DNA from: Flexivirga meconopsidis
GTDB taxonomy: Bacteria > Actinomycetota > Actinomycetes > Actinomycetales > Dermatophilaceae
Reading direction: 5' to 3'
DNA: 64,000 nucleotides
Assembly (NCBI RefSeq): GCF_026162425.1
Contig: NZ_JAOBQJ010000003.1
Span: 124,001-188,000 of the forward strand
The notes under the pieces were generated by a model. That model was not told the origin of the DNA and ran no database searches. It saw only the letters and a list, made by a program, of their open reading frames with translations. Each line of letters opens with the position of its first letter. The first letter of the stretch is position 1. Shown here piece by piece: positions 18,005 to 38,073 of the stretch. The position numbers and the translations under genes are program-made.

Positions 18005-18026
18005 ATACCGAATATGGATCCGGTAT
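18005..18026. promoter_or_regulatory. Short dyad upstream of the NmrA-like gene
   Basis: ATACCG-N10-CGGTAT lies about 90 bases before the ATG at 18117. The size and spacing could fit a dimeric repressor site. No matching regulator gene lies alongside, so this is only a candidate. Confidence 0.2.
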
Positions 18027-18116
18027 AGGTCGGTGATGGGTCCCCGAAGTGCACTGGACGTGCGCCACCGAACGGCGCTTCCTTGAGCACCAGACCCCAC
18101 GAAGGAGTTGGACACC

Positions 18117-18938: not shown

Positions 18939-18975
18939 CCGCCGGCAAGCCGGGCGCCGACCACGACCTCGTCCC

Positions 18976-19980: not shown

Positions 19981-20009
19981 CTAACCGCTGACGTGGGCGA
20001 ACGCCGATG

Positions 20010-23207: not shown

Positions 23208-23344
23208 GGCTTTTCCCCCAGGACGTAGTCGGGGCACCAGCCAACGGGTTCGGCGACCACCCCACCGGTCGCCGGTCCGGCGCCGAGCCCGAGGATACCG
23301 ACCTTGCGCCGCGGCGGGCGTCATACCGCCGATCTCGTCACGAC

Positions 23345-23376
23345 ATTGCGGCGGTGTTGCGGCACCGGCGGATGGT
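23345..23376 (+). promoter_or_regulatory. SARP-type promoter of the main biosynthetic operon
   Basis: ATTGCGG (23345-23351), four bases, GTTGCGG (23356-23362), eight bases, then GATGGT as -10 candidate (23371-23376). Repeat sequence, 11-base period and 8-base gap all match the element at 13484-13515. It lies 57 bases upstream of ATG 23433. Confidence 0.6.
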
Positions 23377-23432
23377 GTCGACGTAAGGCAGCCACCACCG
23401 CAAGCATCATCGATCGGGAAGGACCCAAGTCC

Positions 23433-23996: not shown

Positions 23997-25201
23997 CCAC
24001 CTCCCGCGAACTCCTCCAGGCGCGGGCCGAACGCACCCAGCGATGGGTGGGGCGCCTCGAGTCGACGCCCCATCGGCGCAACAGCTTCATGCCCTACCGG
24101 CCGGTGCCCGGCGGACCGTATGTCGATGTCGAGGGCGAACGCCTACTGATGATGTCCGGTTACAGCTATCTCGGTCTCGCGCACGACCCGCGGCTGGCGG
24201 ATGCTGCGACCGCCGCGATGGCGACCTTTGGCACCGGCGCCCACGGGGTGCGGGCGCTGGCCGGTACCACCCCGCTGCACCACGAACTCGAGGCGCAGGT
24301 TGCCCGGATGCTGGGCCGTGAGTCGGCGTTGGTTTTCGGATCCGGCTATGCCACCAACGTGGGGGTGATTGGTGCGATCTGTGGGCCGGGTGACACGGTC
24401 GTGGTCGATAAGCTGGATCACGCCTCCATCGTCGACGGCTGCAACCTGAGCGGTGCCGACGTGGTGCGCTTCCGGCACAACGATGCCGAACACCTGGACC
24501 GCCGGCTGTCCGCGCTGACCGGCGACGGCCTGCGACTGGTCGTGGTGGACAGCGTCTACTCGATGGACGGCGACATCGCGCCGCTACCGCAGTTGCGCGA
24601 GGTCTGCGACCGGCACGGGGCACTGCTGATGGTGGACGAGGCACACGGGCTCGGCGTCATCGGCGCCACCGGGCGCGGCATCGAGGAGCACTTCGATATG
24701 CCGGGCGGCGCCGACATCAAGGTCGGCACGCTGTCCAAGGGCATCCCGTCCGTGGGCGGCTGGGTGGTCGGGTCCCCCGAGCTGACCTATCACCTGCGGT
24801 ATGCCGCGAGGCCGTTCCTCTTCTCCGCGGCGCTGCCGCCGGCGCAGACCGCGATCGCGCTGGAGGCGCTGCGCGTGCTGGACGCCGAACCGGATCGGGT
24901 GACGTTGATCCAGCAGGAGTCGGCGCGCTTCCGCGACAAGGTGCGGGAGATCGGCATCGATGTCGGCGACAGCGAGACCGCGATCGTGCCGCTCATCATC
25001 GGCAGCGACGAGGCCGCATACGACTACGCGACCCGGTGCAGGGAGAACGGCGTCGTCGGCCTACCGGTCGTGACTCCCGCCGTACAGCCCGGTATGGCGC
25101 GGTTGCGCATCGCGATCACGGCGGCGCACAACCGCGACCACATCGATGAGGCGCTGGGCGCGTTCGCCGCCGCGGCGCAGGCACAGGGCCTGGCAGCATG
25201 A
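23993..25201 (+). CDS. Alpha-oxoamine synthase (KAPA synthase-like, PLP)
   Basis: 402-residue fold-type I PLP enzyme. This family condenses an amino acid with an acyl thioester, losing CO2, to give an alpha-aminoketone. PLP features: DKLDHASIVDG near 133-143, VDEAHGLGVIG near 215-225 and the Schiff-base lysine in GTLSKGIPSVGG near 243-254. GSGYATN matches the 8-amino-7-oxononanoate synthase group. It is not fused to an ACP. Neighbours are KAS II and, further on, a carrier-loading system, not biotin genes. This recalls the RedN/PigH step of prodiginine pathways, where an oxoamine synthase unloads a carrier-bound chain. Joined by ATGA overlaps on both sides. Confidence 0.9.
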   Translation: MTTSRELLQARAERTQRWVGRLESTPHRRNSFMPYRPVPGGPYVDVEGERLLMMSGYSYLGLAHDPRLADAATAAMATFGTGAHGVRALAGTTPLHHELEAQVARMLGRESALVFGSGYATNVGVIGAICGPGDTVVVDKLDHASIVDGCNLSGADVVRFRHNDAEHLDRRLSALTGDGLRLVVVDSVYSMDGDIAPLPQLREVCDRHGALLMVDEAHGLGVIGATGRGIEEHFDMPGGADIKVGTLSKGIPSVGGWVVGSPELTYHLRYAARPFLFSAALPPAQTAIALEALRVLDAEPDRVTLIQQESARFRDKVREIGIDVGDSETAIVPLIIGSDEAAYDYATRCRENGVVGLPVVTPAVQPGMARLRIAITAAHNRDHIDEALGAFAAAAQAQGLAA

Positions 25202-26418
25202 CTGCGCCAGTGGTGTTCACCGGCCGCGGGGTGGTCAGCCCCGCCGGCTGCGGCGTCAATGCGTTCTGGGACGCATTGCTCGCCGCACGCTCTGCGGCCG
25301 CACCCATCGACCGCTTCGACGCGACCCGCCATCGCGTCCGGATCGGTTGTCAGGTGCCGTCACTGGAAGCGCCGAATGGTGTTGACAGTAAGGCATTTCG
25401 ACGCAGTGACCTGTTCACCCAGTATGCGCTGTCGGCCGCCCGAGAGGCGATCGACGACGCGGGGATCGGGGCGATGCGCGGAAGCCGCGTCGGCATAGTC
25501 GTCGGCAACGCTGTCGGTGGCCGCACCACCAGCGACAAGGAGAGCGTGAAGTTTGCCGAACGCGGTGCCGGGGGCGTGAGCCCGCTGATGCCGCTGCTGA
25601 CGATGCCTAACGCGGCCGCCGCCAACATCGCGATGTCCTTCGGCTGGACCGGTCCGGCGTACACAGTGGCGACCACCTGCGCGAGCGGGCTCGACGCGCT
25701 TGGCCTGGCTCGGGCGCTGTTAAGGGCCGATGTCGTGGACGTCGTTCTAGCCGGCGGCTGCGAGGCCACGATCAGCCCGGTCACCATCGCCGCGTTCGGA
25801 ACCCTTGACGCGTTGTCCACCCGGAACGACGCGCCGGCGGCTGCCTGTCGACCGTTCGACGTCGACCGGGACGGGTTCGTCATGGGTGAGGGAGCCGCGT
25901 TCGTCGTACTCGAACGGGAGGCGGACGCGATTTCCCGCGGCGCTACTGTCCACGGCCGCCTGCTCGGGTATGCCGCGACGTCCGACGCGCATCATCTGAC
26001 CGCGCCGCACCCGCAGTCGCTCGGCGCGATCGACGCCATGCGAGGTGCCCTTCGCGACGCCGGCTGCGCGACCACCGACATCGGGCACGTCAACGCGCAC
26101 GGCACGTCCACCAAGTTGAACGATGCCGCCGAAGCGCGAGCGTTACGAGGTGTTTTCGGTGACGCGGCGGTGCCGCCTGTCACCGCGACGAAGGGGGTTA
26201 CCGGACACATGCTCGGCGCGTCCGGCACCGCCGAGGTCATCGCATCGCTCTCCGCCCTCGCAGCGGGTCGTGTGCCGCCCGTCGCGAACCACGCCACGAC
26301 CGACGCCGAGCTCGGCCTCGACGTGGTGCACGACACCCCCCGCCAGGTGCGCCGCGCACCTGTGCTGTCCAACTCCTTCGGTTTCGGCGGGCATAACGCA
26401 TCCGTCGTGGTCGGCTGA
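25198..26418 (+). CDS. Beta-ketoacyl-ACP synthase II (KAS II, FabF-like)
   Basis: 406 residues. The decarboxylative condensing triad is complete: Cys in VATTCASGLDALG (near 161), His in VNAHGTSTK (near 301) and His in KGVTGHMLGASG (near 336), with the Lys just before it. Pairing with no chain-length factor argues against a classical aromatic type II PKS. It elongates a carrier-bound acyl or heterocyclic acyl unit with malonyl-ACP. Alone beside an oxoamine synthase it is comparable in position to the condensing enzyme RedX/PigJ of pyrrole pathways. ATGA overlap upstream, and a 16-base gap to the MaoC gene. Confidence 0.93.
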   Translation: MTAPVVFTGRGVVSPAGCGVNAFWDALLAARSAAAPIDRFDATRHRVRIGCQVPSLEAPNGVDSKAFRRSDLFTQYALSAAREAIDDAGIGAMRGSRVGIVVGNAVGGRTTSDKESVKFAERGAGGVSPLMPLLTMPNAAAANIAMSFGWTGPAYTVATTCASGLDALGLARALLRADVVDVVLAGGCEATISPVTIAAFGTLDALSTRNDAPAAACRPFDVDRDGFVMGEGAAFVVLEREADAISRGATVHGRLLGYAATSDAHHLTAPHPQSLGAIDAMRGALRDAGCATTDIGHVNAHGTSTKLNDAAEARALRGVFGDAAVPPVTATKGVTGHMLGASGTAEVIASLSALAAGRVPPVANHATTDAELGLDVVHDTPRQVRRAPVLSNSFGFGGHNASVVVG

Positions 26419-26434: not shown

Positions 26435-27205
26435 ATGACCGTCATCGATCTGCCCACCCGCATCGCCCGTGAGGGCGCCGACGCCGAGCTGGAGACCCTG
26501 CTGGGTGCCGAACCGGGGCGGGTCGAACTGCTCCGTGCCTTCATCATCGCCCACCCGCACATCGGCAGGCTGGTCGAAGAACGGTTCGCCGCACACACCT
26601 CGCTGGTCCACCTCGACCAGCAGATCGAACTGCACGTTCCCTCCCTCGCCGGGCGAGAAATCCGAGTCACCGCCGAGGCGGCACCGCAGCGCCCGCACCC
26701 GACAGGGACGACCGTCGCGCTGCAGGCGACGCTCACTGACATAGCGGACGGTACGGCGCTCGCCAGCCTGCACGGAACCGTGCTGCTCGCTGGGATCACC
26801 GCGGAGCCAGTGGTCGCCGCCGCGCCCCGGCACCAACCCGCGGCGGCATCGGGGGAACCCCGTGTCCGCCACGTCGGCGTCGGCCAGAACTTCATCAGCG
26901 CCTACGCCCGAATCTCCGGTGACGACAATCCGATTCACCTGGTGCCGAAAGCCGCACGAGCCGCAGGCTTCGAGGGCACGATTGCGCACGGCATGAGCAT
27001 CGTCGGCCTAGTGCTCGCGCGCGCACCCCGCCGCGCGACCGCCGTGGGTGTTCGCTTCGCGCAGCCGGTCGTCGTCGACGACATCGTTCGGCTGTCCATC
27101 GGCCGCACCGTCGACCCGGGCGAGTTCCGGGTCGCGGTGGCCTCCGAGCGCGGCCCTGTCATCAAGGCCGGCTGGCTGCGGGTTTCGCAGGAAGCAGTGA
27201 GATGA
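26435..27205 (+). CDS. MaoC-like hot-dog hydratase/dehydratase
   Basis: 256 residues. The C-terminal half carries the MaoC/R-hydratase motif: Asp and His in ARISGDDNPIHL (near 157-168) and the following GFEGTIAHGMS (near 179-189). The N-terminal half (about 30-125) looks like a second, degenerate hot-dog domain, as in two-domain MaoC proteins. It would dehydrate a 3-hydroxyacyl thioester made by KAS and a FabG-like reductase, or hydrate an enoyl. AGAAAGGGA precedes ATG 26435. An ATGA overlap connects it to the adenylation-domain gene. Confidence 0.85.
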   Translation: MTVIDLPTRIAREGADAELETLLGAEPGRVELLRAFIIAHPHIGRLVEERFAAHTSLVHLDQQIELHVPSLAGREIRVTAEAAPQRPHPTGTTVALQATLTDIADGTALASLHGTVLLAGITAEPVVAAAPRHQPAAASGEPRVRHVGVGQNFISAYARISGDDNPIHLVPKAARAAGFEGTIAHGMSIVGLVLARAPRRATAVGVRFAQPVVVDDIVRLSIGRTVDPGEFRVAVASERGPVIKAGWLRVSQEAVR

Positions 27206-28674
27206 GCACCGCGGCACTCGACGGCACCGGCCTCGCGCGTGCGATCCGGCAGTCTATCGAGCGGGACGGCTGCAGCACCGCTCTGGTGACGTCGGACAAG
27301 GAGGTCGGTTTTGCCGAGTTGGGACGGCTCGCCGACGGCATCGGCGAACAGCTGACCGCCGCAGGAGTCACTCCCGAGACTGGGCTCGCGGTGCTCGCGG
27401 AGAAGTCTGTCCCGGTCATCGGCACTGTGCTGGCGGCGGCCGAGCTCGGCATACCCACGCTCCTGCTGTCGCCACTCCTGCCCGGCGCGACCCGTCGACA
27501 GGCGCTGCAGGAGTCCGGTTGCGGCTTCTTGGCGGACGTATCCGGTCCGGACCCGATCACCAGGGTCGAGTCGGCGTCTGGTCCGTCGAATTGCGCACTC
27601 ATGCTGACGACATCCGGGTCGAGCGGCACCCCGAAGGTCGTGCGGCTCGGCGCGGCCGCCGTCGCGCGGTTCCTGCGGTGGGGTCGGACGACGTTCGATC
27701 TTGGACCGGATCGTGCGTCGCTCTCGTTGGCACCACTGAACTTCGACCTGTCGCTGCTCGACGTCTGGGCGACGCTGGCTGCCGGCGGTAGCAGCGTGCT
27801 GATCGGGGAGCAGACTGCGTTGCGCGGTGCCGAGGTGCTACATCAGATCGCCCGGCACCGGGTGCGGCTGGTCCAGGCCGTGCCGCTCTTCTTCCACCAG
27901 ATGCTGGAAGCTGCCGCCGGCCCTCTCGACTGCGTCGAGCACGTGATCGTCACCGGGGACCGCATCACCCAGGAGACGCTCGACGGCGTCCGTCTGATCT
28001 TCCCGAAGGCGTTGCTGCACAACGTGTATGGCGCGACGGAGACCAACGACAGCTTCTTGCACACCATCACTCCCACCGACCCGCGGCCGCAGGTGCCGTT
28101 GCCGATCGGGCGACCGATCGACGGAGTGACCGCCCTGCTCGTCGACGACGACGGACGACCGGTCGACGGAGCCGGGACCGGTCGGCTGGTCGTACGCACG
28201 CCGTTCCAGGCTGATGGCTATTCGGACGGCGACCTCCACGCAGCGTCGTTCATCACCCGGGCCGACAGCGGGGCGATGTTCTTCGTCACCAGCGACCGGA
28301 TCCGACGCGACACTGACGGGTTGTGCCACTACGAGGGGCGGTGCGACCGCAAGGTAAAGGTGCGCGGGGTGCTGATCGACCTCGACGAGCTGGAGGTGGT
28401 GCTGTGCCGACACGAGGCAGTGCGTGAGGCAGCCGCCCTCGCAACCCCGGATCCTGTTTCTGGACAGCGAATTTCGGTCGTCGTATCGGTGACCGAGCTG
28501 ACCCCCGGCCTCGGTGTTGCACTCCGGTTGCACTGCAGCGGAAGTCTTCATCGTGCGGGTGTTCCCGGCGCGTTCCATCTCGGTACCGGGCCGCTCCCGC
28601 GGACCACGACAGGCAAGATCGACCGCCGCCGCGCGCACCGCGAGGTGGCAGACACCGAAAGGAAGATCGCATGA
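27202..28674 (+). CDS. Stand-alone adenylation domain (NRPS-like amino acid activation)
   Basis: 490 residues. It activates a carboxylic acid as the adenylate and passes it to the carrier encoded next. Core motifs are A3 TTSGSSGTPK (near 137-147), A4 around NFDLSLLDVW (180-189), A5 NVYGATET (274-281), A8 around GRCDRKVKVRGVLIDLDELE and A10 PRTTTGKIDRR with the catalytic Lys. By hand alignment to GrsA the pocket reads Asp182, Leu183, Leu186, Gln225, Ile249, Thr251, Val275, Asp283. The first three (D-L-L) recall prolyl-activating RedM/PltF-type enzymes. Asp283 near the pocket floor is unlike them and could bind a second amine. ATGA overlaps on both sides. Confidence 0.88.
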   Translation: MSTAALDGTGLARAIRQSIERDGCSTALVTSDKEVGFAELGRLADGIGEQLTAAGVTPETGLAVLAEKSVPVIGTVLAAAELGIPTLLLSPLLPGATRRQALQESGCGFLADVSGPDPITRVESASGPSNCALMLTTSGSSGTPKVVRLGAAAVARFLRWGRTTFDLGPDRASLSLAPLNFDLSLLDVWATLAAGGSSVLIGEQTALRGAEVLHQIARHRVRLVQAVPLFFHQMLEAAAGPLDCVEHVIVTGDRITQETLDGVRLIFPKALLHNVYGATETNDSFLHTITPTDPRPQVPLPIGRPIDGVTALLVDDDGRPVDGAGTGRLVVRTPFQADGYSDGDLHAASFITRADSGAMFFVTSDRIRRDTDGLCHYEGRCDRKVKVRGVLIDLDELEVVLCRHEAVREAAALATPDPVSGQRISVVVSVTELTPGLGVALRLHCSGSLHRAGVPGAFHLGTGPLPRTTTGKIDRRRAHREVADTERKIA

Positions 28675-28928
28675 CCGTCATCGAGCAACTGGAGAAGTAC
28701 GTCGCGCAAGAGTTCCTGGGCCAGCCCGGCGAGGCGATCCCCACCGATCTGGATCTGCTGAACAGTGCCATCCTGGACAGCCTCGGCATGCTGAAGATGA
28801 TCGCCTGGATCGAGACGACCTTCGACGCCGTGATCTCCGACCAGGACCTCGACCCGGAGAACTTCCGTTCGATTGGCTCGATCGCCGAGTTCGTCGAACG
28901 CGCCGGTAGCGTCCGCACGGTGGCATGA
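28671..28928 (+). CDS. Peptidyl/acyl carrier protein
   Basis: 85 residues with the phosphopantetheine serine at Ser37 in NSAILDSLGMLKMIAWIE and acidic helices typical of free-standing carriers. It directly follows the adenylation domain by an ATGA overlap and precedes the TrpD-like gene by another. It is therefore the likely carrier for the activated amino acid and the platform for the dehydrogenase and Trp-like enzymes. It differs clearly from the ACP at 13127-13378, so the cluster has two carriers: one for chain building, one for amino-acid loading. Confidence 0.92.
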   Translation: MTVIEQLEKYVAQEFLGQPGEAIPTDLDLLNSAILDSLGMLKMIAWIETTFDAVISDQDLDPENFRSIGSIAEFVERAGSVRTVA

Positions 28929-29944
28929 GCTCCCAGGAGCTGCTCGGCCGGTTGATCCGCCAGGAGCCGGCGGAGCAACCATTGTGGGCCGCTCTGTGGC
29001 GACGACTCGACCGTGACGAAGTCAGTCCGACCGAGCTGGCCGCAGTGCTCACCGCGGCTAGCCTCCCCGGCGTTGATGGCGCGACCCTCGTGGGTTTCGT
29101 CCGGTCGTTGCAGGCTCCCGCCGACCGCACGACAGTGCCTGGCGAGTCGGTGAACATCGTTGGCACCGGAGGAGGTCCGCGAACCTTCAACGTATCCACG
29201 GCATCGGCCCTGGTGGCTGCCGCGGCCGGCGCCCATGTCGTTAAGACCGGATCCCGCGGCTACAGCAGTGCGGTTGGCGCAACGGAGATCGTCGAGCGGG
29301 CCGGTTTCCCGGTCGCCAAGTCGAACGACGACATTCGGGTGCACACACAGGCGCACCGCATCGCGTTCACCGGCCACCAGGTCTATCCGGCCCAGCTGGT
29401 CCGGATAGCCCGGCGCATCGTTCCCCTCGGGATGCGCTCGTTCGGGGCTTTCCTCAACCAGGTCGGTCCGTTCTTGGCCGACGTTCCGGTCACCGCGCAG
29501 TTGACGGGAGTCAGCGCGTCGTTTCGGATGTCGCAGATGAGCCGGCTGGTCCAGGTTGTCCCCGGCAGGGAGATCACCCTGGTGTCCAGTCAGTGCGGTA
29601 TCGACGAACTGGTCAGTTGCTCGCGGTCCCTGGTCGTCCACCCGGACGGTGAGGTGCGGGTGATCGAGCCCGGCGAATTCGCAACCGGCGATGGCGGGTT
29701 GGCCGATCTTGCGCCGGTCGACCCCGAGCGCGCGGTCGAGCATCTCGCCGAGGTCGTGGACGGCCGCGCGTGCCGCACAGCGACCGCGACTGTGGTGCTG
29801 AACGCCGCGCTGTTGCTCCAGCTTGCCGGGTGCAACAACTCGTTCCGCGACGCGGTCGACACCGCACAGGACACCATCGCGTCCGGTCTGGCGTCCTCGC
29901 TGATGGAGACCTTGGCGGCTCGAACGGTGGCGTCCGGTGTCTGA
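28925..29944 (+). CDS. Divergent anthranilate phosphoribosyltransferase-like protein (TrpD')
   Basis: 339 residues, the TrpD fold. TrpD transfers phosphoribose from PRPP to the amine of anthranilate. The PRPP loop is IVGTGGGPRTFNVST (78-92): the conserved Asp of GTGGD is Gly84. The KHGNR block is KTGSR (107-111), so the His and Asn that contact anthranilate are Thr108 and Ser110. The Mg2+-binding Asp-Glu pair is kept (CGIDEL, near 223-228), and LGMRSFGAFLNQVGPF is recognisable. The catalytic scaffold survives but the acceptor site is remodelled, suggesting PRPP transfer to a different amine. ATGA after the carrier gene. A canonical trpD exists at 43907-44956. Confidence 0.85.
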   Translation: MSSQELLGRLIRQEPAEQPLWAALWRRLDRDEVSPTELAAVLTAASLPGVDGATLVGFVRSLQAPADRTTVPGESVNIVGTGGGPRTFNVSTASALVAAAAGAHVVKTGSRGYSSAVGATEIVERAGFPVAKSNDDIRVHTQAHRIAFTGHQVYPAQLVRIARRIVPLGMRSFGAFLNQVGPFLADVPVTAQLTGVSASFRMSQMSRLVQVVPGREITLVSSQCGIDELVSCSRSLVVHPDGEVRVIEPGEFATGDGGLADLAPVDPERAVEHLAEVVDGRACRTATATVVLNAALLLQLAGCNNSFRDAVDTAQDTIASGLASSLMETLAARTVASGV

Positions 29945-30725
29945 CCGCCGCCCCGGGGTGGTGCTCTTCCTCACCGCGGGCGACCCCGACCTGGCAACTA
30001 CGGAACGGCTGTTGCGCAGCGCCGACGAGCACGAGGTGGACTGGGTCGAGCTGGCCGTGCCGTTCCCGGACTCGCCGACCGACGGGCCCACGATCCGCCG
30101 GTCGGCGGATCGTGCCCTAGGCGGAGGTGTGGGGATGGTCGACGTGCTATCGCTGGTCGCCCGCGTGCGACCAACGTTGCGGCACAGTCGGATTGCCCTA
30201 CTCACCGATTGGTCGGCGACGTTGCGCGAGGTCGGGATGGGGGAGGGACTGACAGCAGTTCACCATTCGGGGGCGGACGCGGTTCTGGTGCACGGTCTAC
30301 CGCCGCGGATGAGGGCCGAACACGACAGGGTGACAAGTGCACTCGGACTTGCGGTGGTGACCACCTGTTACGCGGGCGTGTCCGACGAGCGCACGCTGCG
30401 CGCCGCAGCGAACGGAGCCCCGGCATACATCTATCTCGTGTCGAAGTACGGACGTACCGGCGGCACCCTCGACACCGCGAACGACGCGGTTGCCACGACG
30501 GTCAGCCGGTTGCGCGCATGGACCACCGCTCCGATCGCAGTCGGCTTCGGGGTGCGGGACTCCACACATCTGGACGCGATCGGCGCGGCAGGTGCGGATG
30601 CGGCGGTCATCGGGACCGCCTGCGTCGAGGCGGTGGAAGAGGGCATCGGAGGCGATGTGCTCGGTTCGTTCGAGGCGTTCCTTAGTCGCCTCGGGCTGCT
30701 TCGCAAGATCAGCTCACGGGTGTGA
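29937..30725 (+). CDS. Divergent tryptophan synthase alpha-like lyase (TrpA')
   Basis: 262 residues, TIM barrel. TrpA cleaves indole-3-glycerol phosphate to indole and glyceraldehyde 3-phosphate. Both catalytic acids are kept with the right spacing: Glu38 and Asp49 in VELAVPFPDSPTDGP. Phosphate-binding stretches IAVGFGVRDS and AVIGTACVEA are present. The loop normally reading SRxGVTG is SKYGRTG. Interface residues toward TrpB are hard to judge, and no TrpB' accompanies it. It may work alone as an indole-glycerol-phosphate-lyase-like enzyme that releases a ring and a triose phosphate. Overlaps TrpD' by 8 bases. The canonical trpA is at 41156-41959. Confidence 0.85.
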   Translation: MSDRRPGVVLFLTAGDPDLATTERLLRSADEHEVDWVELAVPFPDSPTDGPTIRRSADRALGGGVGMVDVLSLVARVRPTLRHSRIALLTDWSATLREVGMGEGLTAVHHSGADAVLVHGLPPRMRAEHDRVTSALGLAVVTTCYAGVSDERTLRAAANGAPAYIYLVSKYGRTGGTLDTANDAVATTVSRLRAWTTAPIAVGFGVRDSTHLDAIGAAGADAAVIGTACVEAVEEGIGGDVLGSFEAFLSRLGLLRKISSRV

Positions 30726-30752
30726 GCGCTACCTGGAAGAAGGGAACTCATC

Positions 30753-31127
30753 ATGTTGATTCGTCAGAAGGTCGACAGTCCGCGCGTTGCCTGGGGGAAC
30801 GGTGACAGCTACCGGATGGTCGTCGAGAACGACGGCCTCGGCTTCGCGCTCGCGCACACCGTGGTCACCAAGGGAACGGTGTCCCGGCTGCAGTACCGCA
30901 ACCACATCGAGGCCTGCTACTGCATCAGCGGTAGTGGAGCCGTCGTCGAGGCGGACGGCACTCGACACGAGATAACTCCGGGGGTGCTCTACGCGCTGAA
31001 CAACCATGACCCGCACGAGCTCGTCGCCGACAACGAAAGCGACCTGGTGCTCCTGTCCGTCTTCAACCCGCCGATCGTCGGCAACGAGCAGCACGTGCTC
31101 GACGACGCCGGCTACTCCTGCTACTGA
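30753..31127 (+). CDS. Ectoine synthase-like cupin (EctC')
   Basis: 124-residue cupin with end-to-end similarity to ectoine synthase, which closes N-gamma-acetyl-diaminobutyrate into a cyclic amidine by losing water. The iron ligands known in EctC appear conserved: Glu53 (NHIEACYCISG), Tyr80 (GVLYALNNHD) and His88 (DPHEL), with near-identical spacing. The usual Val-Cys-Val-Phe-Asn-Pro-Pro reads LSVFNPP, so that Cys is Ser. There is no ectA, ectB or ectD, so this is not an osmolyte operon. It sits inside the Trp-like block. A cyclodehydration on a pathway intermediate is the natural guess. AGAAGGGA precedes ATG 30753. Confidence 0.85.
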   Translation: MLIRQKVDSPRVAWGNGDSYRMVVENDGLGFALAHTVVTKGTVSRLQYRNHIEACYCISGSGAVVEADGTRHEITPGVLYALNNHDPHELVADNESDLVLLSVFNPPIVGNEQHVLDDAGYSCY

Positions 31128-31129
31128 TT

Positions 31130-32236
31130 ATGACCTCTGTCCTGTCACCCGCGATCCGGTTCGACTTCTCCGGGCTGCCCTCCTCGGAGGGCGGCTTCAC
31201 CGCCACCTCCTGGGACCGCGTCCGCGCCACGGGGGTCCTGCGCGAAATCTTCCCGCGGCAGTTCGGGGGTGCAGGACACTCGCTGTCCGAGGCGCTCGAC
31301 GCCTTCGAGCGCCTCGGACACGCGAATCCTGATGCGGGGCTGAGTTTTTCGGCCGCCACCGCGGTCGCCAGCACCGGGGTACCACTCGAGTCGTTCGGCA
31401 GCGACTACCTCAAGCATCGTTACCTGCCCTCGGTTTGTGACGGCAGCCTGGTCGGTGCTCACGCGATCACCGAGGCGTCCAGCGGCTCCGACGCCTTGCA
31501 CATGGCGACCCGGGCCGTTCCCCACGGCGAGGACTTCGTCATCGAGGGCAGCAAGACCTTCGTCACCAACGCCGGCATCGCCGACTACTACGTCATCTAC
31601 GCGCGGACCAGCGACCACCCAGGTCCGTTCGGGCTGACCGCTTTCCTGGTGCCAGCGGATGCACCCGGTCTGCAGGTCGTGCGAACCCTGCCGACGATGG
31701 GTCTGCGCACCTCCCCGGTCGGAGAGCTGCGGCTGGCGGACCTACGGGTGCCGCGCGACCATGTGATCGGTGGTGTCGGTCGCGGTTTTTTGGTGCTCGA
31801 CCATGTCATGCAGCGCGAGATCCTGCTGTCCTTCACGATCAACGTCGGCGAGATGGCTCGACGACTGGAGGAGAGCGTGGAGTGGGTGCGGGGACGCACT
31901 CAGTACGGCGCGCCGATCGCGTCCTACCAGGCTGTCGCCCGCCGCGTGGTCGACATGCGCATCGCGGTCGACACCTCGCGGCTCTGGCTGAGGGACGCAG
32001 CCCGACGCATCGACGCCGGCGAGGATGCGTCGGCACAGGTGGCGATTGCGAAACTGACTGCGAGCGAGGCGAATCTGGAGACTGCGATCAGCGCCACGAG
32101 ACTCTTCGGCGGCCGCGGTTACCTGACCGAGTTCGGGGTGGAGCAGCAGCTTCGCGACGCGGCGGGCGGGGCGATCTACTCCGGTACCAACGACATCCAG
32201 TACAACCGACTGGCAGCACTGATGGGATTGCGATGA
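31130..32236 (+). CDS. Acyl-CoA dehydrogenase-like flavoenzyme, probably carrier-bound substrate
   Basis: 368-residue ACAD fold: N-terminal helices, a central beta domain with EASSGSD and FVTNAGIADYYVI, and a C-terminal helical domain with FGGRGYLTEFGVEQQLRDA. The usual catalytic Glu of IYEGT is Ser351 (IYSGTNDIQ). A Glu occurs instead at 230 (VMQREILLSF), the place used by isovaleryl-CoA dehydrogenase and, as I recall, by prolyl-carrier dehydrogenases of the PltE/RedW/PigA group. With an adenylation domain and carrier in the same operon, oxidation of an aminoacyl-carrier to an enamine/imine is likely. Two-base gap from EctC', ATGA to TrpF'. Confidence 0.87.
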   Translation: MTSVLSPAIRFDFSGLPSSEGGFTATSWDRVRATGVLREIFPRQFGGAGHSLSEALDAFERLGHANPDAGLSFSAATAVASTGVPLESFGSDYLKHRYLPSVCDGSLVGAHAITEASSGSDALHMATRAVPHGEDFVIEGSKTFVTNAGIADYYVIYARTSDHPGPFGLTAFLVPADAPGLQVVRTLPTMGLRTSPVGELRLADLRVPRDHVIGGVGRGFLVLDHVMQREILLSFTINVGEMARRLEESVEWVRGRTQYGAPIASYQAVARRVVDMRIAVDTSRLWLRDAARRIDAGEDASAQVAIAKLTASEANLETAISATRLFGGRGYLTEFGVEQQLRDAAGGAIYSGTNDIQYNRLAALMGLR

Positions 32237-32922
32237 CCGCTCAACTGAAGGTTTGCGGGGCGACCTGCAGCTATGAGATCGAGCAGGCGTCGGCTGGCGG
32301 GGCGGACCTCGTCGGCCTCTGGTGGCGGGTGCCCGGATCCCCGTTCAGCCTCCCTGAGTCAGAGCTCGCCGCACTGCGTGAGACCGCCGAATGGTGTGGA
32401 GTCCGCGCCTGTCTGGTGACTTTCGAGGGGGATGCGGCCGCGATCGCCGGCTGCCTGTCGGAGACCGGGATCCGCGCGGTGCAGTTGCACGCCTTCCAGG
32501 CACCCAGCGTCGTGCAGGAGATCGTCGCCGCATCGGGCGACCACGTGTCCGTGCTCAAGGTGCTGCATTGTGACGGCGACACCTGCCTCGACGGCAGATT
32601 CGCAGGTGCGTACGCCCGGGCGGGTACTTCGGCTTTCATCCTCGACGCGGTGCGCAACGGTCGAATCGGCAGCACCGGCAGCATGATCGGGGCAGATACG
32701 GTGCACCGAATGCTTGACGAACTGACGCTGCCGGTCATGCTGGCCGGTGGCCTCGGTGGGGTGGTCCCGACCGGTCACGATGGTGTGTTGAGGCACCCCA
32801 GGTTTGCTGGGGTCGACGTCGATGGCTCTGCCCGAGACTGCGACGGCCTCATCAATGCCGCTGCCGTGCAGGCCGTCGCCGATGCATGGACGGTCATGGC
32901 CGAGACCCGGAAGGCGTCATGA
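32233..32922 (+). CDS. Divergent phosphoribosylanthranilate isomerase-like protein (TrpF')
   Basis: 229 residues, TIM barrel. TrpF performs the Amadori rearrangement of N-phosphoribosyl anthranilate. The general base Cys8 (LKVCGATC) and general acid Asp138 (AFILDAVRNG) are conserved, as are VQLH near 83-86 and LAGGLGG near the phosphate site. Beyond these the family text is altered: the SxRxV stretch near residue 33 is missing and the C-terminal SSGVE-KD motif reads VDGSARDCD. This fits an isomerase for a different N-phosphoribosyl amine. Overlaps neighbours as ATGA at both ends. A canonical trpF lies at 47843-48448. Confidence 0.83.
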   Translation: MTAQLKVCGATCSYEIEQASAGGADLVGLWWRVPGSPFSLPESELAALRETAEWCGVRACLVTFEGDAAAIAGCLSETGIRAVQLHAFQAPSVVQEIVAASGDHVSVLKVLHCDGDTCLDGRFAGAYARAGTSAFILDAVRNGRIGSTGSMIGADTVHRMLDELTLPVMLAGGLGGVVPTGHDGVLRHPRFAGVDVDGSARDCDGLINAAAVQAVADAWTVMAETRKAS

Positions 32923-33611
32923 GTCGGTTCGTCGATGCCCTGCAGGACGGGGAACGGCCGCTGATCGCAGAGGTCAAACGGAGCAAGCCCGACGGATCGC
33001 CGCTGGTGGGCCGACGCAGTGTCGGCGACGTGGTCGACACCTACCACCGAATCGGCCCGGGCTGCATCTCGGTGGTAACCGGAAGCTGGTTTGGCGGGGA
33101 CGACGAACTCCTGTCGACAACTCGCGCGCTCACCGAACTTCCCATCCTGCGTAAGGATTTCGTCACTCGTCGAGATCAGGTCACCCGGTCACGCGACCTG
33201 GGAGCCGACGCGGTGCTACTGACCGCGGGCCTGTTGCCCCCGTCCGGTCTCAACGCGTTGGTGATGCAGTGTGTCGACCTGGGACTGGCGCCCTTCGTGG
33301 AGGTCACGTCGGCCGCCGAGGTCGTGTCTCTGGACGACCCCGGATCGTGCGTCGTCGCCGTCAACAACCGGGACATCCGAGTCCGGGAGACCGATGGGGA
33401 AGGCCCGGAGCGCAGCATGCGGCTCGCCGACGCGGTGTTCGCTGCCAGGCCGGCGATCGCGGTGAGTGCCAGCGGCATCGTGTCCGTCCAGGCCGCCGAG
33501 GCGCTGTTGCGTCGCGGCTACGAGGCACTGCTGGTCGGCTCAGCACTGCTCACCTCGGCGGACCCCGTTGAGTGGGGCCGTCTCCGCCGCCCCGCGGGAG
33601 TCACGCTATGA
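32919..33611 (+). CDS. Divergent indole-3-glycerol-phosphate synthase-like protein (TrpC')
   Basis: 230 residues against 263 for the canonical copy in this window. The N-terminal helices that close over CdRP are missing (the first catalytic Glu is residue 18, not 46). TrpC cyclises CdRP with loss of CO2 and water. Glu18 and Lys20 (IAEVKRS), Lys79 (ILRKDF), Glu128 (PFVEVTS) and Asn149-150 (AVNNRDI) match the known catalytic set. The SPS segment after EVK is changed (SKPDG), and VSESGI is VSASGI, replacing a conserved Glu by Ala184. A ring closure with altered substrate, perhaps without decarboxylation, is plausible. ATGA overlaps on both sides. Confidence 0.85.
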   Translation: MSRFVDALQDGERPLIAEVKRSKPDGSPLVGRRSVGDVVDTYHRIGPGCISVVTGSWFGGDDELLSTTRALTELPILRKDFVTRRDQVTRSRDLGADAVLLTAGLLPPSGLNALVMQCVDLGLAPFVEVTSAAEVVSLDDPGSCVVAVNNRDIRVRETDGEGPERSMRLADAVFAARPAIAVSASGIVSVQAAEALLRRGYEALLVGSALLTSADPVEWGRLRRPAGVTL

Positions 33612-34318
33612 CCGGTCCGGTCGCGGTCTGCCTGCCTCCGGCCGGCGGGTCTGCGACGATGACGCGATCCTGGAGGCTGCCCAGCGAGTCGGTGGTCTGT
33701 CCCAACATTCGCCGGTTACGCTCCCAAGTGGGCAGATTCGACCTTGAGGCCGTCGCTGGCGAGGTTGCCAGCCGCGTGCTGTCCGGCCGACGGACGGTGC
33801 TCATCGGCCACTCCCTCGGTGGCCTGCTCGCCTACGAGGCCGCACGAGTCGCCATTGCGGCCGGGCAGCCACCGGCAGCGGTCGTGGTCATGGGTTCCCG
33901 GCCGCCGCACGTCCCGACTGGGGTCCTCTTCGAGCACCTACTCGACCTGGACGACGACGCATTCCTCACCCGGTTGGCCGACCTCGGTGCGGTCGATGCC
34001 GCGCTGTGTCGCGGCCCCTTCGCACGGTTGATCGTCGGCCCGTTGCGTACAGATCTTCGGCTGGTGTGCAGCTACGCGCCCGACCCAGTCCTCCGGCGTG
34101 CGCATCCACTCGATGTCCCTCTGCACGTGTGGGGCGGCGTGGACGACCCGCTCGCACCCTCGGCGATGCTCGACCATTGGGCGCCGTATGCCGCAACTAT
34201 CCACCGGCGTACCTTCGACGCCGATCATCAATTCCCGACCGCTTGCGGTGACCGGGTCGGCGCCGCGCTGCGCGACCTCCTCGCTACGTGTCCGGCCCCT
34301 TCCCGCGCTTCGGCATAG
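33608..34318 (+). CDS. Type II thioesterase (alpha/beta hydrolase)
   Basis: 236 residues. Typical external thioesterase of NRPS/PKS loci: PPAGGSA near the N-terminus, nucleophile Ser in LIGHSLGGLLAYEAAR (near 76), Asp in VWGGVDDPLAP and His in FDADHQFP. It removes wrong or stalled acyl groups from carrier proteins, or releases the final product. It is the last gene of the 23433-34318 operon, joined by ATGA to TrpC', and converges on the opposite operon with only 43 bases between stops. N-terminal region is a little shorter than usual, lacking part of the first strands. Confidence 0.87.
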   Translation: MTGPVAVCLPPAGGSATMTRSWRLPSESVVCPNIRRLRSQVGRFDLEAVAGEVASRVLSGRRTVLIGHSLGGLLAYEAARVAIAAGQPPAAVVVMGSRPPHVPTGVLFEHLLDLDDDAFLTRLADLGAVDAALCRGPFARLIVGPLRTDLRLVCSYAPDPVLRRAHPLDVPLHVWGGVDDPLAPSAMLDHWAPYAATIHRRTFDADHQFPTACGDRVGAALRDLLATCPAPSRASA

Positions 34319-34361: not shown

Positions 34362-35669
34362 TCACGCCGGTTCCTCGAAGGTGAGTGCGTCACCTACCCG
34401 CAGGTCGAGGTCCTCCGCGGTCACCACCGCCGGCGCGTCGAGGATGATGTTGTAGTGGTTGGGGTGGTGGCACTCGTCGAAACCGGCCACCGTGCCGAGT
34501 TCGCGGTCGTTGACCTTCACCCTGTCGCCACGCTCGACGACGGTCGCCTCGACGAACTCGGCGAAGCCGAGGAACCCGGCGGCATCGACCCGGTCACCGG
34601 CTCGCTGCGGCCGGTCGGTTGTGGTCAGCAGTTCGTGGATCTCGCCGCTGCGCACGCATCGGCTGGTCCACTCCGACAGTTCCATGCCGCGCTCGTCCCT
34701 GCGGTGGAAGAGCAGCTTGACGAAGCGCGCATGCGCCGGCGCTTTTGCCGACATGCCGGAGCGGAGCTCCTTTCGGCGCGCGATGCGGTAGGCGTCGTCG
34801 ACCAGCCGGACCAGCTGCTGCCCGACATCGTCGGTGCGGTGACGAACGACCGTGTCGACGAAATCCTCGACTATGCCGTCGTATTCATGCTCCAGCGATG
34901 ATTTGAAGCCAGGAAATCCGGCCAGCATGTCGACCACACGCTGGGACCCGTCGGCCAGGTCGAGCGTGACGTCCTTGACCTCGCCGTTCGCCAGCCCCCA
35001 GTCGAGTTCGACCCGGACCGGCACTCCGTCCTGGTTGATCAGGTCGACGTTGGCCCGAAACTCAACGCCGGCACGGACGTCTCCGATGGTCGCGTCGACA
35101 ACGTCGAGATCGCCCACGAGCGACCGCACGGCATCAATTGCGTTGGGACCGTTGTCGATCAAGCAACCGCCGCCGCATCGGTCCCGATCGAGGTACCAGC
35201 GCTCGGCACCCGTGTGTTCCTCGATGTTCTCGTGGTATCGGGCGGTCACCGCCGTCACCTTCGGCCCTGAGAGCAGGGACGGTGCCACCTGCTGAATGTT
35301 CCGGTTGTAGCGTCGGTGCAAGGCGGTGAACAGCGTGACGTCGTGCCGCTCGGCGAGGGCCGTCAGACGCTCAGCATCGGAGGCAAGGACAGTCAGCGGC
35401 TTCTCGCAGCAGACGTGCACGCCTGCGACCAGGGCGTTTCCGGCAATCTCCGCGTGTGCCGAGTTCGGCAAGGTGAGGATCACCGCGTCGGCCAGCCCGG
35501 CCGCCAGCAGGTCGTGATGGTCGGTAAAGCGGGCGACGTGGTCGGGTATGTCGCCGAACCTGCTCTCGTCCAGATCGCAGACCGCGGTGAGCTCGGTGTC
35601 CGGGCATCGTTCGACGGCGCGCCGGAAGTATGGGGAGATGACCCCCAATCCGATGATGGCGATACGCAT
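34362..35669 (-). CDS. Gfo/Idh/MocA oxidoreductase with extra C-terminal domain
   Basis: 435 residues. An N-terminal Rossmann fold (IAIIGLGVISPYFR at 3-16), the family EKP motif (HVCCEKPLTVLAS near 88-100) and HRRYNRN mark an NAD(P)-dependent sugar or inositol dehydrogenase. The catalytic-like His region DNGPNAIDA follows near 165. After about residue 325 an extra ~110-residue domain follows, with repeated GDRV-type beta-barrel text (GDRVDAAGFLGFAEF and ECHHPNHYNIIL), not part of normal Gfo/Idh enzymes. Last gene of the long leftward operon; its ATG overlaps the preceding stop as TGATG. In WbpA-WbpB-WbpE pathways a Gfo/Idh enzyme makes the 3-keto sugar for DegT transamination. Confidence 0.8.
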   Translation of the reverse strand: MRIAIIGLGVISPYFRRAVERCPDTELTAVCDLDESRFGDIPDHVARFTDHHDLLAAGLADAVILTLPNSAHAEIAGNALVAGVHVCCEKPLTVLASDAERLTALAERHDVTLFTALHRRYNRNIQQVAPSLLSGPKVTAVTARYHENIEEHTGAERWYLDRDRCGGGCLIDNGPNAIDAVRSLVGDLDVVDATIGDVRAGVEFRANVDLINQDGVPVRVELDWGLANGEVKDVTLDLADGSQRVVDMLAGFPGFKSSLEHEYDGIVEDFVDTVVRHRTDDVGQQLVRLVDDAYRIARRKELRSGMSAKAPAHARFVKLLFHRRDERGMELSEWTSRCVRSGEIHELLTTTDRPQRAGDRVDAAGFLGFAEFVEATVVERGDRVKVNDRELGTVAGFDECHHPNHYNIILDAPAVVTAEDLDLRVGDALTFEEPA

Positions 35670-36745
35670 CAGGCCGCTCCTTGCTGTGAGGTGACCACGG
35701 GCAGGGTGAGATTCAGATCCTCGGCCAGCTCCTCGAGCTGGCGAACTAAGAACGGTTGCAAGGCAATCCCGTCGCGTCGATGAAGAGCGGCACGCTGCGC
35801 GTCGGGTGCGCCCGGGTAGCTGACCGGTGTCCCGTCGAGAGCGGGCTCGTCGCGAAGCAGCCGGTCCAGGACCTCACGACTGCGCGTCGGCAACGCCATA
35901 CCCACACCCAGGCGCTCTGGGTCGATCGCGATCACCACGTGCCCGATCCCGTCGGAGTCGCAGTCATCGGTGCCCGCATCCGCACCGGCCAGTGGGCCGC
36001 AGAGCAGTTCGACGAGCACGCCGAGCCCGAAGCCCTTGACCGCACCGCGCGTCAGGTCTCCGCCCAACCAGGTCAATGCCGCCCGGCCGCTGAAGTAATC
36101 GTCCGGATGGGTCACCGGCTGACCCACGGCATCGCGCAGCCAGCCCTCGGGCACCAGTGCTCCCGCCGCCTGCCGCTCGCGCACCTTCCCGCTGGCGACT
36201 GTCGTGGTGCTCATGTCCAGCACGAACGGCGGCCCGCCCGGCGCCGGCACCGCTGCCGCGATCGGGTTGGTCCCGAGCAGCTTGGTGGTCCCGCCGAGCG
36301 GGGGCACCACGCCCTGACTACCGCAGTTGGTCATCGCCATCGACACGACTCCGCGGAGGGCAGCGCGTCGGGCGTAGTAGCCAGCGCTGCCGAAGTGAGT
36401 GCTGTTGCGGACGGTGCAGATGCCTACGCCGTGCTCGTGCGCTCGTTGCACCGCGAGGTCGGTTGCGAACTGCGCTGTGGCGTGGCCGAGAGCACGGTGA
36501 CCATCGACGACGCAGCACGCTCCACCGTCCTGCACAAGCTGCGGACGGGCGCGGGCGTCGATGCGTCCTTCCCGTAGACCGGGCACGTAGATCGGGGCCA
36601 GCCCGGCGCAGCCGTGGGTGCTGAACCCGTGGAGGTCGGCGTAGATGAGGACGTCGGCGGTCACCGTCGCCTGGTCGCTGGGTACGTCGTGCCGCAGCAA
36701 CACCGCGCGCACGAAATCGTGCAGGTCCTCGTGGCTGATGATCAT
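35669..36745 (-). CDS. Ldh2-family (malate/L-sulfolactate type) NAD(P) dehydrogenase
   Basis: 358 residues of the malate/lactate dehydrogenase 2 family, which oxidises 2-hydroxyacids with a non-Rossmann fold. Recognisable are DLHGFSTHG near 38-46 (catalytic His), NSTHFGSAGYYA near 115-126, GTNPIAAAVPA near 155 and GLGVLVELLCGPLAG near 248. It could make or reduce a 2-keto acid for one of the two aminotransferases. The ATG overlaps the M20 stop as ATGA; its own stop overlaps the Gfo/Idh start. The substrate cannot be read from sequence. Confidence 0.87.
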   Translation of the reverse strand: MIISHEDLHDFVRAVLLRHDVPSDQATVTADVLIYADLHGFSTHGCAGLAPIYVPGLREGRIDARARPQLVQDGGACCVVDGHRALGHATAQFATDLAVQRAHEHGVGICTVRNSTHFGSAGYYARRAALRGVVSMAMTNCGSQGVVPPLGGTTKLLGTNPIAAAVPAPGGPPFVLDMSTTTVASGKVRERQAAGALVPEGWLRDAVGQPVTHPDDYFSGRAALTWLGGDLTRGAVKGFGLGVLVELLCGPLAGADAGTDDCDSDGIGHVVIAIDPERLGVGMALPTRSREVLDRLLRDEPALDGTPVSYPGAPDAQRAALHRRDGIALQPFLVRQLEELAEDLNLTLPVVTSQQGAA

Positions 36746-38073
36746 GCTGCCACCTCGCGCTGACGATTGCCGAAGGCGACCACCAGTTCCTTGATCCGTT
36801 GGGCGTAATCGCGCAGGTCCGCGATCTCGACGAACTCCTCCGGGGTGTGTGCTCTGTTTGTGGACAGCCGACCCGGGCCGCACACGGCGACGTAGCGGCC
36901 GGGTGCACCGGCCCAGATCGCGTCGCAGGTGAAGGCCGAGCCGTCGCTGATGCCGTCGTGCCGGGGCAGGCCGGCCAGGCGGAACACCGTCTCCATCTCC
37001 GCGTCCCGGTTGGCCAGGGTTGGCAGGTCTCGCTTGAGCCAGGAGCCGTGCACCACCTCGCCCCATTCATCCACCAGGCGCAGGGCGAGCGGGTTCTCAC
37101 GGTGGGTCCGGGCGAACTCGGCACCTGCCGCGTCCACCAGGTCGAGCAAGTCTTGTTGCAATGCCTGCGCCGAATCTTCCTGTGCATACGCGATATTCAG
37201 CAGCAGTCGGCCTGATCCGTATGCCCGGTTGTGCGCGGTGCCGGTCTCTAGCCCGGCTATGCAGAGCTTGGCGTCGAGACCGCGTGCGACTGGTCCGAAG
37301 CGCCGCGCCAGGAACTCGGCGAGGAAGCCCAGTGCGATCGTCGCGTTGTGGGCGGCTTCCGGGTGGTCGTCGGTGCTGTCCTCTCCGGCCACCTCGATCT
37401 GGAAGGTCATCGCCGAGGTGCAGTGGTCCATTGCTCGGTTCCCAGAGGGTTCGGCGAAAACCATCAGCCGGCCCACGTGGCCGCGGTCCACCAGGTGTTT
37501 GGTGCCGTAAACACCCATCGCGCCACCTTCCTCACCCGGCACGCTCGTCAGCCGGACTTCGATCTCGTCTGCCAGCCAAGGGTGTTCGGCGAAGGCGGAG
37601 GCGATGCCGGCGGCTGCGGCAACGCCGGGGCCTTTGTCGTCCACAGCGCCCCTGCCGTGCAGCACACGACCGTCGAAGGTGACCTCGAGGTGCGGTCCGA
37701 CGGTGTCGACGTGGAAGTTGACGATCAGGCGCCGTTGCTCGGGTTGTTCCCGGCCCATCCGTAGAACGAGCGACGGCTGGTCGCGCAGAAAGCCGTGTGG
37801 GTCAGCCTCGGCCGCATCACGAACGATCTGTGGCACCTCGTCGGTCTCGAGAAAGAGATCGACCGAGGGAGAAGAACATTCGACGACTTCGAAGCCGAGC
37901 TCCTCGGCACCGGCTCGCACGATCTGTTGTGCTCGCCGCGTCTGCGCGGGGTCACCGCCCTCCAGCGGCGAGACCGATGGGACCTCGAGTAGCTCAATGA
38001 GCCAGGCGAGGTCGCTCGGGCCGAACGGGATGACCGACCGCAATGCCCGATCCGCAAAGTCAGGCTGCAACAT
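36742..38073 (-). CDS. M20-family metallopeptidase/deacylase (DapE/ArgE-like)
   Basis: 443 residues. Two-zinc site residues are in order: His-x-Asp in VNFHVDTVGPH, Asp in GRGAVDDKGPG, Glu-Glu in VPGEEGGAMG, and a late His in NRAHTPEEF. A dimerisation domain sits between. The family removes acyl or amino-acid groups (DapE, ArgE, carnosinase, LysW-deprotecting enzymes). ATG 38073 with GGAGGA at five bases is clear; the gene overlaps the isomerase end by 14 bases. With two ATP-grasp ligases elsewhere in the cluster, it may cleave a protecting or carrier amide. That role is inferred. Confidence 0.87.
   Translation of the reverse strand: MLQPDFADRALRSVIPFGPSDLAWLIELLEVPSVSPLEGGDPAQTRRAQQIVRAGAEELGFEVVECSSPSVDLFLETDEVPQIVRDAAEADPHGFLRDQPSLVLRMGREQPEQRRLIVNFHVDTVGPHLEVTFDGRVLHGRGAVDDKGPGVAAAAGIASAFAEHPWLADEIEVRLTSVPGEEGGAMGVYGTKHLVDRGHVGRLMVFAEPSGNRAMDHCTSAMTFQIEVAGEDSTDDHPEAAHNATIALGFLAEFLARRFGPVARGLDAKLCIAGLETGTAHNRAYGSGRLLLNIAYAQEDSAQALQQDLLDLVDAAGAEFARTHRENPLALRLVDEWGEVVHGSWLKRDLPTLANRDAEMETVFRLAGLPRHDGISDGSAFTCDAIWAGAPGRYVAVCGPGRLSTNRAHTPEEFVEIADLRDYAQRIKELVVAFGNRQREVAA

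Follow-up and report, generated by a model that had tools for sequence, protein, structure and literature searches.

Kosinostatin (quinocycline B), encoded by the kst genes of Micromonospora sp. TP-A0468 and the ksn genes of Streptomyces albidoflavus, is the closest described counterpart of the operon analysed here, which lies in a 64,000-nucleotide stretch of the genome of the plant-associated bacterium Flexivirga meconopsidis (contig NZ_JAOBQJ010000003.1, positions 124,001 to 188,000; hereafter the window, whose first base is position 1). The bicyclic amidine of kosinostatin was reportedly found by Ma et al. in 2013 to be built by tryptophan-like steps. With the window its clusters share a discrete adenylation enzyme (A) and peptidyl carrier protein (PCP), homologues of TrpD, TrpA, TrpF and TrpC, and an ectoine-type gene. 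A related logic operates in the 4-methoxy-2,2'-bipyrrole-5-carbaldehyde (MBC) branch of prodigiosin and undecylprodigiosin biosynthesis (enzymes PigI, PigG, PigA, PigJ and PigH), where A, PCP and an ACAD flavoenzyme produce a pyrrolyl-carrier thioester, after which a ketosynthase (KS) and an alpha-oxoamine synthase (AONS) act. The Flexivirga operon probably represents a branch of this kosinostatin-type pyrrolopyrrole cassette that is new and uncharacterised, and in which eight proteins would build a carrier-bound bicyclic amidine by the logic of the tryptophan pathway. The gene set, its order, its conservation, the separate clades and the residue patterns described below are direct observations.

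The operon comprises twelve plus-strand genes between 23993 and 34318. It begins with a BioF/serine-palmitoyltransferase-like AONS (23993-25201, its start re-set by eye to the ATG at 23993), which scores 388 bits with TIGR00858, under the cut-off of 426, and carries the pyridoxal phosphate lysine motif LSKG. A stand-alone FabF-like KS with Cys-His-His motifs (25198-26418; TIGR03150, 437 bits) and a MaoC-like dehydratase (26435-27205; PF01575, 2e-14) follow, a gap of 16 bases separating the KS gene from the likely MaoC start at ATG 26435, chosen by eye. The eight-gene core then runs through the stand-alone A enzyme (27202-28674; TIGR01733, 225 bits; specificity code D-L-L-Q-I-T-V-D-S), the discrete carrier protein (28671-28928), with a DSL serine and with NF058660 and other acyl carrier protein (ACP) models all under cut-off, the anthranilate-phosphoribosyltransferase-like TrpD' with its altered acceptor pocket (28925-29944), the indole-glycerol-phosphate-lyase-like TrpA' (29937-30725), the ectoine-synthase-like cupin EctC' with an intact iron site (30753-31127; PF06339, 117 bits), the prolyl-carrier-protein-dehydrogenase-like flavoenzyme ACAD (31130-32236), the phosphoribosylanthranilate-isomerase-like TrpF' (32233-32922) and the indole-glycerol-phosphate-synthase-like TrpC' (32919-33611). 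A thioesterase (33608-34318; PF00975, 6e-16) closes the series. Eight of the eleven junctions are overlaps of 4 or 8 bases, the intervals before EctC' and ACAD measure 27 and 2 bases, and none of the twelve genes contains an internal stop. The close coupling of the four Trp-like genes with EctC', ACAD, A and the carrier, already proposed in the preliminary description, is thus borne out by family matches and uninterrupted frames; the genes it named are all present, but the operon is longer than it had given, the interval 28925-33611 being the portion from TrpD' to TrpC'.

The four Trp-like proteins all exceed the Pfam gathering scores, and their profile matches place them in these families well beyond what chance would give. 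TrpD' matches TIGR01245 with E=2.4e-47 and 161.8 bits, under the curated cut-off of 199; TrpA' matches PF00290 with 1.4e-41 and 142.6 bits and lies above the TIGR00262 cut-off; TrpC' matches PF00218 with 2e-37 (129 bits on the longer frame from 32886). The weakest assignment is that of TrpF', with 1.1e-05 and 25.7 bits against a PF00697 cut-off of 22.7, and with scores under cut-off in each of the eight NCBIfam models that it matched. The catalytic residues listed in the preliminary description were found in place, namely Asp227-Glu228 of TrpD', E38/D49 of TrpA', C8/D138 of TrpF' and, counted from ATG 32919, E18/K20/K79/E128 of TrpC'.

Conservation of these residues was counted over all extracted rows of at least 70% length, window included (A 69, ACP 69, TrpD 69, TrpA 71, EctC 71, ACAD 78, TrpF 83, TrpC 79). 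The Mg-site Asp-Glu pair, Lys107 and Arg111 of TrpD' are invariant (69/69), as are the TrpA' equivalents of Glu49, Asp60 and Tyr175 (71/71) and the TrpC' equivalents of Glu51, Lys53, Lys110 and Glu159 (79/79); Asn180 of TrpC' is kept in 78 of 79 rows, Cys8 of TrpF' in 82 of 83 and its Asp138 in all 83. The residues that read anthranilate have changed. The arginine that contacts it is present in 24/24 ordinary TrpD proteins and in 0/69 TrpD', where the His155 equivalent is proline and the aspartate of the GTGGD motif is gone, both in 69/69; in TrpC', Glu210 has become alanine in 78/79 and Arg182 lysine in 77/79. This alteration is seen in most or all family members of the TrpD', TrpC' and TrpF' alignments, and the residue pattern is, as the preliminary description held, that of enzymes which remain active but work on a new acceptor.

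Trees of hand-picked cassette loci (34 of the 83 TrpF rows, 34 of 71 TrpA, 32 of 79 TrpC and 32 of 69 TrpD), each with 20-24 bona fide rows, separate cassette TrpD', TrpF', TrpC' and TrpA' from the ordinary Trp clades with an SH-aLRT support of 100. The primary TrpD-F-C-A pathway thus has families, catalytic residues and presumed reaction types in common with the window proteins, which differ in their separate clades and in their changed anthranilate and carboxylate residues. A redundant or specialised tryptophan pathway feeding the cluster could explain why the main catalytic residues are kept; the position outside the bona fide clades at full support, the changed anthranilate-binding residues, the lack of trpB in the operon and the existence of two other trp sets in the genome make it very improbable. 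Neither anthranilate synthase nor TrpB was found among the operon genes. Separate clades, kept catalytic residues and changed anthranilate residues agree with the earlier proposal that the quartet was recruited together to a different amine, one that is probably carrier-linked.

The cassette is widespread. A TrpF' scan of 394 genomes of the class gave seven matches including the window, one of them weak (L013) and belonging to an ordinary TrpF. A nine-sequence TrpF' profile applied to a collection of 84,980 species returned 73 loci. The number of genomes behind them is smaller, since four or more contributed two loci each, and at least L010/L063 and L011/L065, both counted, are probably the same contig twice. 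Most are from Streptomyces, the others coming from Arthrobacter, Sanguibacter, Nocardiopsis, Lentzea, Actinokineospora, Actinoplanes, Kitasatospora and further genera, with three alphaproteobacterial loci and one Dormiibacterota contig outside the actinobacteria. The full core (A, PCP, TrpD', TrpA', EctC', ACAD, TrpF', TrpC') is present in 57 of the 73, and 54 of those 57 have it in the window order on one strand, so that the gene order sought after the preliminary description recurs in many genomes. Among the 16 incomplete loci, eight are cut by contig ends or lie on short contigs, and two lacking EctC (L062, L081) may end early.

AONS, KS and MaoC accompany the cassette in 32/73 loci, and the window belongs to this large AONS-type branch of at least 32 loci, in which the three genes replace a type II polyketide synthase (PKS). 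The KS is conserved in the branch, and the AONS homologues that adjoin other cassettes are mostly 64-75% identical to that of the window. In a concatenated FastTree phylogeny of seven proteins and 67 rows the window is sister to Sanguibacter (97) and then to Arthrobacter (100, 100), a placement to be read with caution because window and Sanguibacter are both long branches; the loci of kosinostatin type group in a clade of their own. On this tree four changes are required for the AONS-KS-MaoC label; the unlabelled rows within the AONS-type clade are three loci cut short (L035, L040, L044) and one with MaoC only (L063). The thioesterase is confined to the Micrococcales sub-branch, a match above 60 bits being found beside the cassette in L030, L046 and L056 only of the 73 loci, which belong to two Arthrobacter and to Sanguibacter.

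Several loci depart from the common arrangement. Two different cassettes occur in single strains of Streptomyces sp. MJM8645, Streptomyces sp. CB02056 and Kitasatospora sp. MAA19 (L028/L066, L031/L076, L033/L068). Cassette relatives on an Aliiroseovarius plasmid (L017) and in Roseomonas (L062) stand beside genes for a UbiD decarboxylase, which could remove the ring carboxylate, and an MMPL transporter; L017 has relatives of TrpF' and TrpA' only, and as a long branch its placement is unsure. In the Lentzea/Actinokineospora cassettes L050, L055, L039 and L075 a TrpB-like gene lies directly upstream of TrpF', possibly marking a further branch with a synthase step.

The relation to kosinostatin was examined through Nocardiopsis alkaliphila YIM 80379 (L067), which stands in for the original kst sequences; PMC7918784 names this species as the holder of a nearly complete kosinostatin cluster. 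The locus has all eight core genes, dTDP-glucose synthase and 4,6-dehydratase genes in its surroundings, and, about 16 kb from the cassette, a ketosynthase/chain-length factor (CLF) pair whose CLF is 57% identical to the one adjoining the L053 cassette; such pairs are found near L067, L053 and L042. Window and L067 share the eight-gene core, with 41-52% identity per protein, and an identical A code. They differ in that AONS, KS, MaoC and thioesterase take the place of a type II PKS in the window, that the gene which kosinostatin-type loci have between ACAD and TrpF' is missing from it, and that it falls in another clade. The operon genes include no type II KS/CLF pair, their one ketosynthase being FabF-like, and the remaining window was not probed for CLF; as the operon is without a type II PKS partner, kosinostatin is not expected as its product. 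PF04673 was considered as a marker of type II PKS and had no match in the source genome; it was dropped, being absent from the L067 genome as well, and was replaced by the ketosynthase/CLF comparison. The joint use of four Trp-like enzymes, for which the preliminary description knew of no described pathway, is already known as the core of the kosinostatin pyrrolopyrrole pathway, and it is the AONS-type variant branch that is new. A search of the open-access literature by titles and abstracts, with most subscription papers outside it, found no product in print for this branch, nor any account of Trp-like genes with carriers or of a glutamine origin.

The locus has been annotated before. Region 3.2 of Flexivirga meconopsidis Q11T (149,753-160,127) is given in PMC10745605 as antiSMASH type 'ectoine' with 8% similarity to kosinostatin, and EctC' starts at contig position 154,753, exactly 5,000 bases inside it; the passages available from that paper label the region ectoine/kosinostatin-like and leave the Trp-like genes unmentioned. 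That the operon is an ectoine cluster, as the automatic label, the EctC homologue and its intact iron site would have it, is hardly credible: ectA and ectB are lacking among the operon genes, and a separate EctC with a higher score (177 vs 116 bits) starts at 18,107 on contig 7, 5,000 bases inside Region 6.1 (13,107-23,508), for which the same source reports 100% similarity to ectoine.

EctC' itself reaches 70% length or more in 70 of 82 fetched loci. Its three iron ligands, as defined in PMC6344544, and Tyr52 are kept in 71/71 rows, and with ectoine synthase it shares the cupin family and the equivalents of Thr40, Arg25 and Ser23. It differs in the absence of ectAB, in a pocket tryptophan shifted three residues upstream, in a WGNG motif (69/71, 2 gaps), and at the Asn38 position, where EctC binds the free carboxylate group of its usual substrate. 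Here 69 rows have Thr, Ala or Cys and 2 have a gap; the seven bona fide actinobacterial EctC proteins compared have His. An earlier reading, in which Trp21 of EctC was replaced by Gly, was withdrawn, the residue being retained at the shifted place. According to PMC5924519, ectoine synthase can convert free glutamine into the cyclic amidine ADPC, though very inefficiently, and two papers call the function of orphan EctC proteins unresolved.

The second enzyme without a counterpart in the tryptophan pathway, ACAD, keeps the catalytic base Glu and the SGTNDIQ motif. Among Protein Data Bank entries its top match is 6cxt, labelled butyryl-CoA dehydrogenase, followed by the L-prolyl-PCP dehydrogenase 5zw0, and the prolyl-ACP dehydrogenase 4irn is among the six best; Glu230 of the window protein aligns with the glutamate changed in 6af6 relative to 5zw0. 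The best NCBIfam models, RedW/PigA, are far under cut-off (NF045652, 309 against 650 bits; NF053553, 289 against 500). The operon differs from the prodigiosin pathway elsewhere too, the KS and AONS being most like FabF and BioF: the KS scores 72.6 bits with PigJ, whose cut-off is 900, and the 25 best matches of the AONS include no prodigiosin model. The window moreover adds the Trp-like and EctC steps.

For the substrate, the order of steps and the product we infer the following route. The A enzyme would load an amine-bearing acid, perhaps L-glutamine, onto the PCP, and EctC' would join the alpha-amine to the side-chain amide with loss of water, giving the cyclic amidine 5-amino-dihydropyrrole-2-carboxyl-PCP, which ACAD would oxidise to 5-aminopyrrole-2-carboxyl-PCP. 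TrpD' would then transfer phosphoribose from phosphoribosyl pyrophosphate (PRPP) to the exocyclic amine, TrpF' would catalyse the Amadori rearrangement, TrpC' would close the second ring onto the adjacent pyrrole carbon with loss of water and without decarboxylation, and TrpA' would remove glyceraldehyde 3-phosphate. The end point would be pyrrolo[2,3-b]pyrrole-carboxyl-PCP, with an acyl part of +132.03 Da over holo-PCP. Since KS and AONS, and not a type II PKS, stand beside the cassette, the likeliest fate in the AONS-type branch would be extension of the acyl group with malonate by KS and decarboxylative condensation with an amino acid by AONS, by analogy with the prodigiosin bipyrrole.

The starting acid deserves separate consideration. 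The A code follows D-(L/I/V)-(L/F)-Q-x-(T/S)-(V/I/L)-D-S in 69/69 cassettes, and that of the window equals that of L067 exactly, which argues that the window cluster starts from whichever acid kosinostatin does. In the published scheme nicotinic acid is what the A enzyme attaches to the carrier; the pyridine becomes a pyrrole while bound there, and the ribose-derived ring is added only afterwards by TrpD', TrpF', TrpC' and TrpA'. This account involves the same cassette and competes with the glutamine part of the route alone; it is stated in a review and in papers citing Ma et al., and we regard it as a real possibility short of a probable one. According to PMC7918784, kstB loads nicotinic acid and converts it to pyrrole, and kstC joins pyrrole and PRPP into pyrrolopyrrole; disruption of ksnC3, a putative phosphoribosylanthranilate isomerase gene, eliminates kosinostatin according to PMC13099267. 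Four features suggest a poor fit with nicotinate: the first-position Asp, the prolyl-dehydrogenase-like ACAD, the frequency of EctC' and the lack of a conserved pyridine-converting gene. An Asp at the first code position, here invariant (69/69), generally binds an amine and is typical of amine-bearing acids. EctC' would have no obvious role, and by our reckoning one nitrogen would be unaccounted for. Nor was any extra gene able to open, aminate, deformylate or contract a pyridine conserved across branches in a neighbour test, in which 174 open reading frames (ORFs) taken from 18 representative loci were compared with 63 long ones. No locus extends more than about 10 kb from TrpF' in either direction, and conserved genes further out would escape the test; the ORF caller, resembling one that mis-called several L056/L017 genes, may miss genes too. 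Matches in more than half of these loci were confined to cross-matches of an ACAD paralogue (60/63) and of CLFs (33/63); regulators (27/63), anthrone-oxygenase-like proteins (18/63) and the gene between ACAD and TrpF' (17/63) came next.

Glutamine would account for all eight proteins with one role each and would supply both ring nitrogens; it is nevertheless put forward tentatively, as a minority view, since it has yet to be reconciled with the published labelling. In a further proposal, a beta-aminoacyl carrier would receive the phosphoribose and then cyclise, giving a pyrrol(in)e-3-carboxyl unit and no bicyclic amidine. The geometry of indole-glycerol-phosphate synthase should permit a 3-aminoacryl thioester to form a five-membered ring, and the best NCBIfam match of the carrier is cispentacin AmcB, under cut-off; we dropped the idea as unlikely because it leaves EctC' without a role and because the window shares its A code with the kosinostatin branch, which makes a bicyclic product.

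A number of points weigh against the proposed bicyclic-amidine cassette or against its glutamine start. The operon lacks the type II PKS partner. The window TrpC' retains the arginine (R162) that 77/79 relatives change to lysine, the carboxylate Arg is retained in 11/83 TrpF', and the EctC' pocket is less altered than it seemed, its tryptophan being shifted and not lost. The A code does not match what we take to be the glutamine code; the specificity-code positions and active-site residues are numbered as in known structures. Six long loci (L037, L039, L049, L073, L075, L090) lack at least one core gene in the stretch covered. In print, kosinostatin is derived from nicotinic acid and ribose, with a nonribosomal peptide synthetase unit that incorporates nicotinic acid, which speaks against a glutamine start.

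The gene between ACAD and TrpF' is found in 7/7 kosinostatin-type, 10/26 other and 0/30 AONS-type loci. In L067 it occupies 9291-9998, and at the same position in S. xanthii (L015) stands a gene, possibly its counterpart, annotated as transglutaminase-like; it may be an off-loading enzyme. Around the window operon, a SARP-family activator (20010-23324, minus strand) is the probable cluster regulator, with homologues in 31 of the loci compared; such a regulator matches 25 of the 30 AONS-type loci. Two more SARP-like regulators (3710-9058, minus strand) adjoin a carboxyltransferase-like gene read by eye (9055-10686). An anthrone-oxygenase-like protein of uncertain coding start (23430-23996, plus strand; PF08592, 1e-14) directly precedes the operon; proteins so named are annotated near the L014 cassette, and direct tblastn with the window protein matched only L080. 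A flavin monooxygenase and a cytokinin-dehydrogenase-like FAD oxidase (13576-16650, plus strand) have homologues near the L014, L048 and L052 cassettes, with identities of 51-54% and 39-43%, respectively, and may be tailoring enzymes and thus candidate cluster members.

The genome (4,283,908 bases in 10 contigs, that of the window measuring 750,316 bases) gives three matches each for trpA, trpC and trpD. Ordinary-looking trpA-B-C-D and trpF lie on the minus strand of the window at 41156-48451, interleaved with a UDP-sugar dehydrogenase, and their TrpA, C, D and F fall on the bona fide side in the four trees. They lie where the preliminary description placed them, but they are not the only other set, and to take them as the primary pathway would mislead: the likely housekeeping genes are trpCBA (contig 5) and trpD (contig 3), with 37-57% identity to the TrpA, B, C and D of the window set, which is therefore a second set, the cassette proteins being a third. 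Ordinary TrpF has a single genomic copy, at 47843-48451. The second set may serve a different specialised pathway. A MocR-type regulator (GntR plus aminotransferase; 46234-47880, plus strand) lies amid its genes. The minus-strand stretches 34362-41165 and 49698-53210 hold two DegT-type aminotransferases, two Gfo/Idh-like oxidoreductases (one fused to DUF6917), Ldh_2, an M20 peptidase, a xylose-isomerase-like protein and an ATP-grasp enzyme, and together look like a separate aminosugar or amide-forming cluster. Beside other cassettes the minus-strand genes of 34362-53210 have only scattered family matches of about 30-34% (MFS, Gfo/Idh, TrpB-like in four loci), cross-matches between paralogous Trp proteins set aside, and they probably belong to something other than the cassette.

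Tentatively extended to the whole family, kosinostatin and all pyrrolopyrrole antibiotics might derive from glutamine and PRPP through EctC, a prolyl-PCP-type dehydrogenase and a non-decarboxylating Trp-like quartet, and the window branch might pass the ring to an amino acid by KS and AONS, yielding a new bipyrrole-like class. What was a single rare antibiotic pathway becomes a widespread eight-gene module, complete in 57/73 loci, almost all of them from Actinomycetota, and the Streptomyces loci often belong to its AONS-type branch. If the glutamine start is true, at least some orphan EctC proteins would have a role. The published nicotinate assignment becomes directly testable with one purified enzyme. 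A quartet from primary metabolism appears to have been recruited as a block to carrier-bound chemistry.

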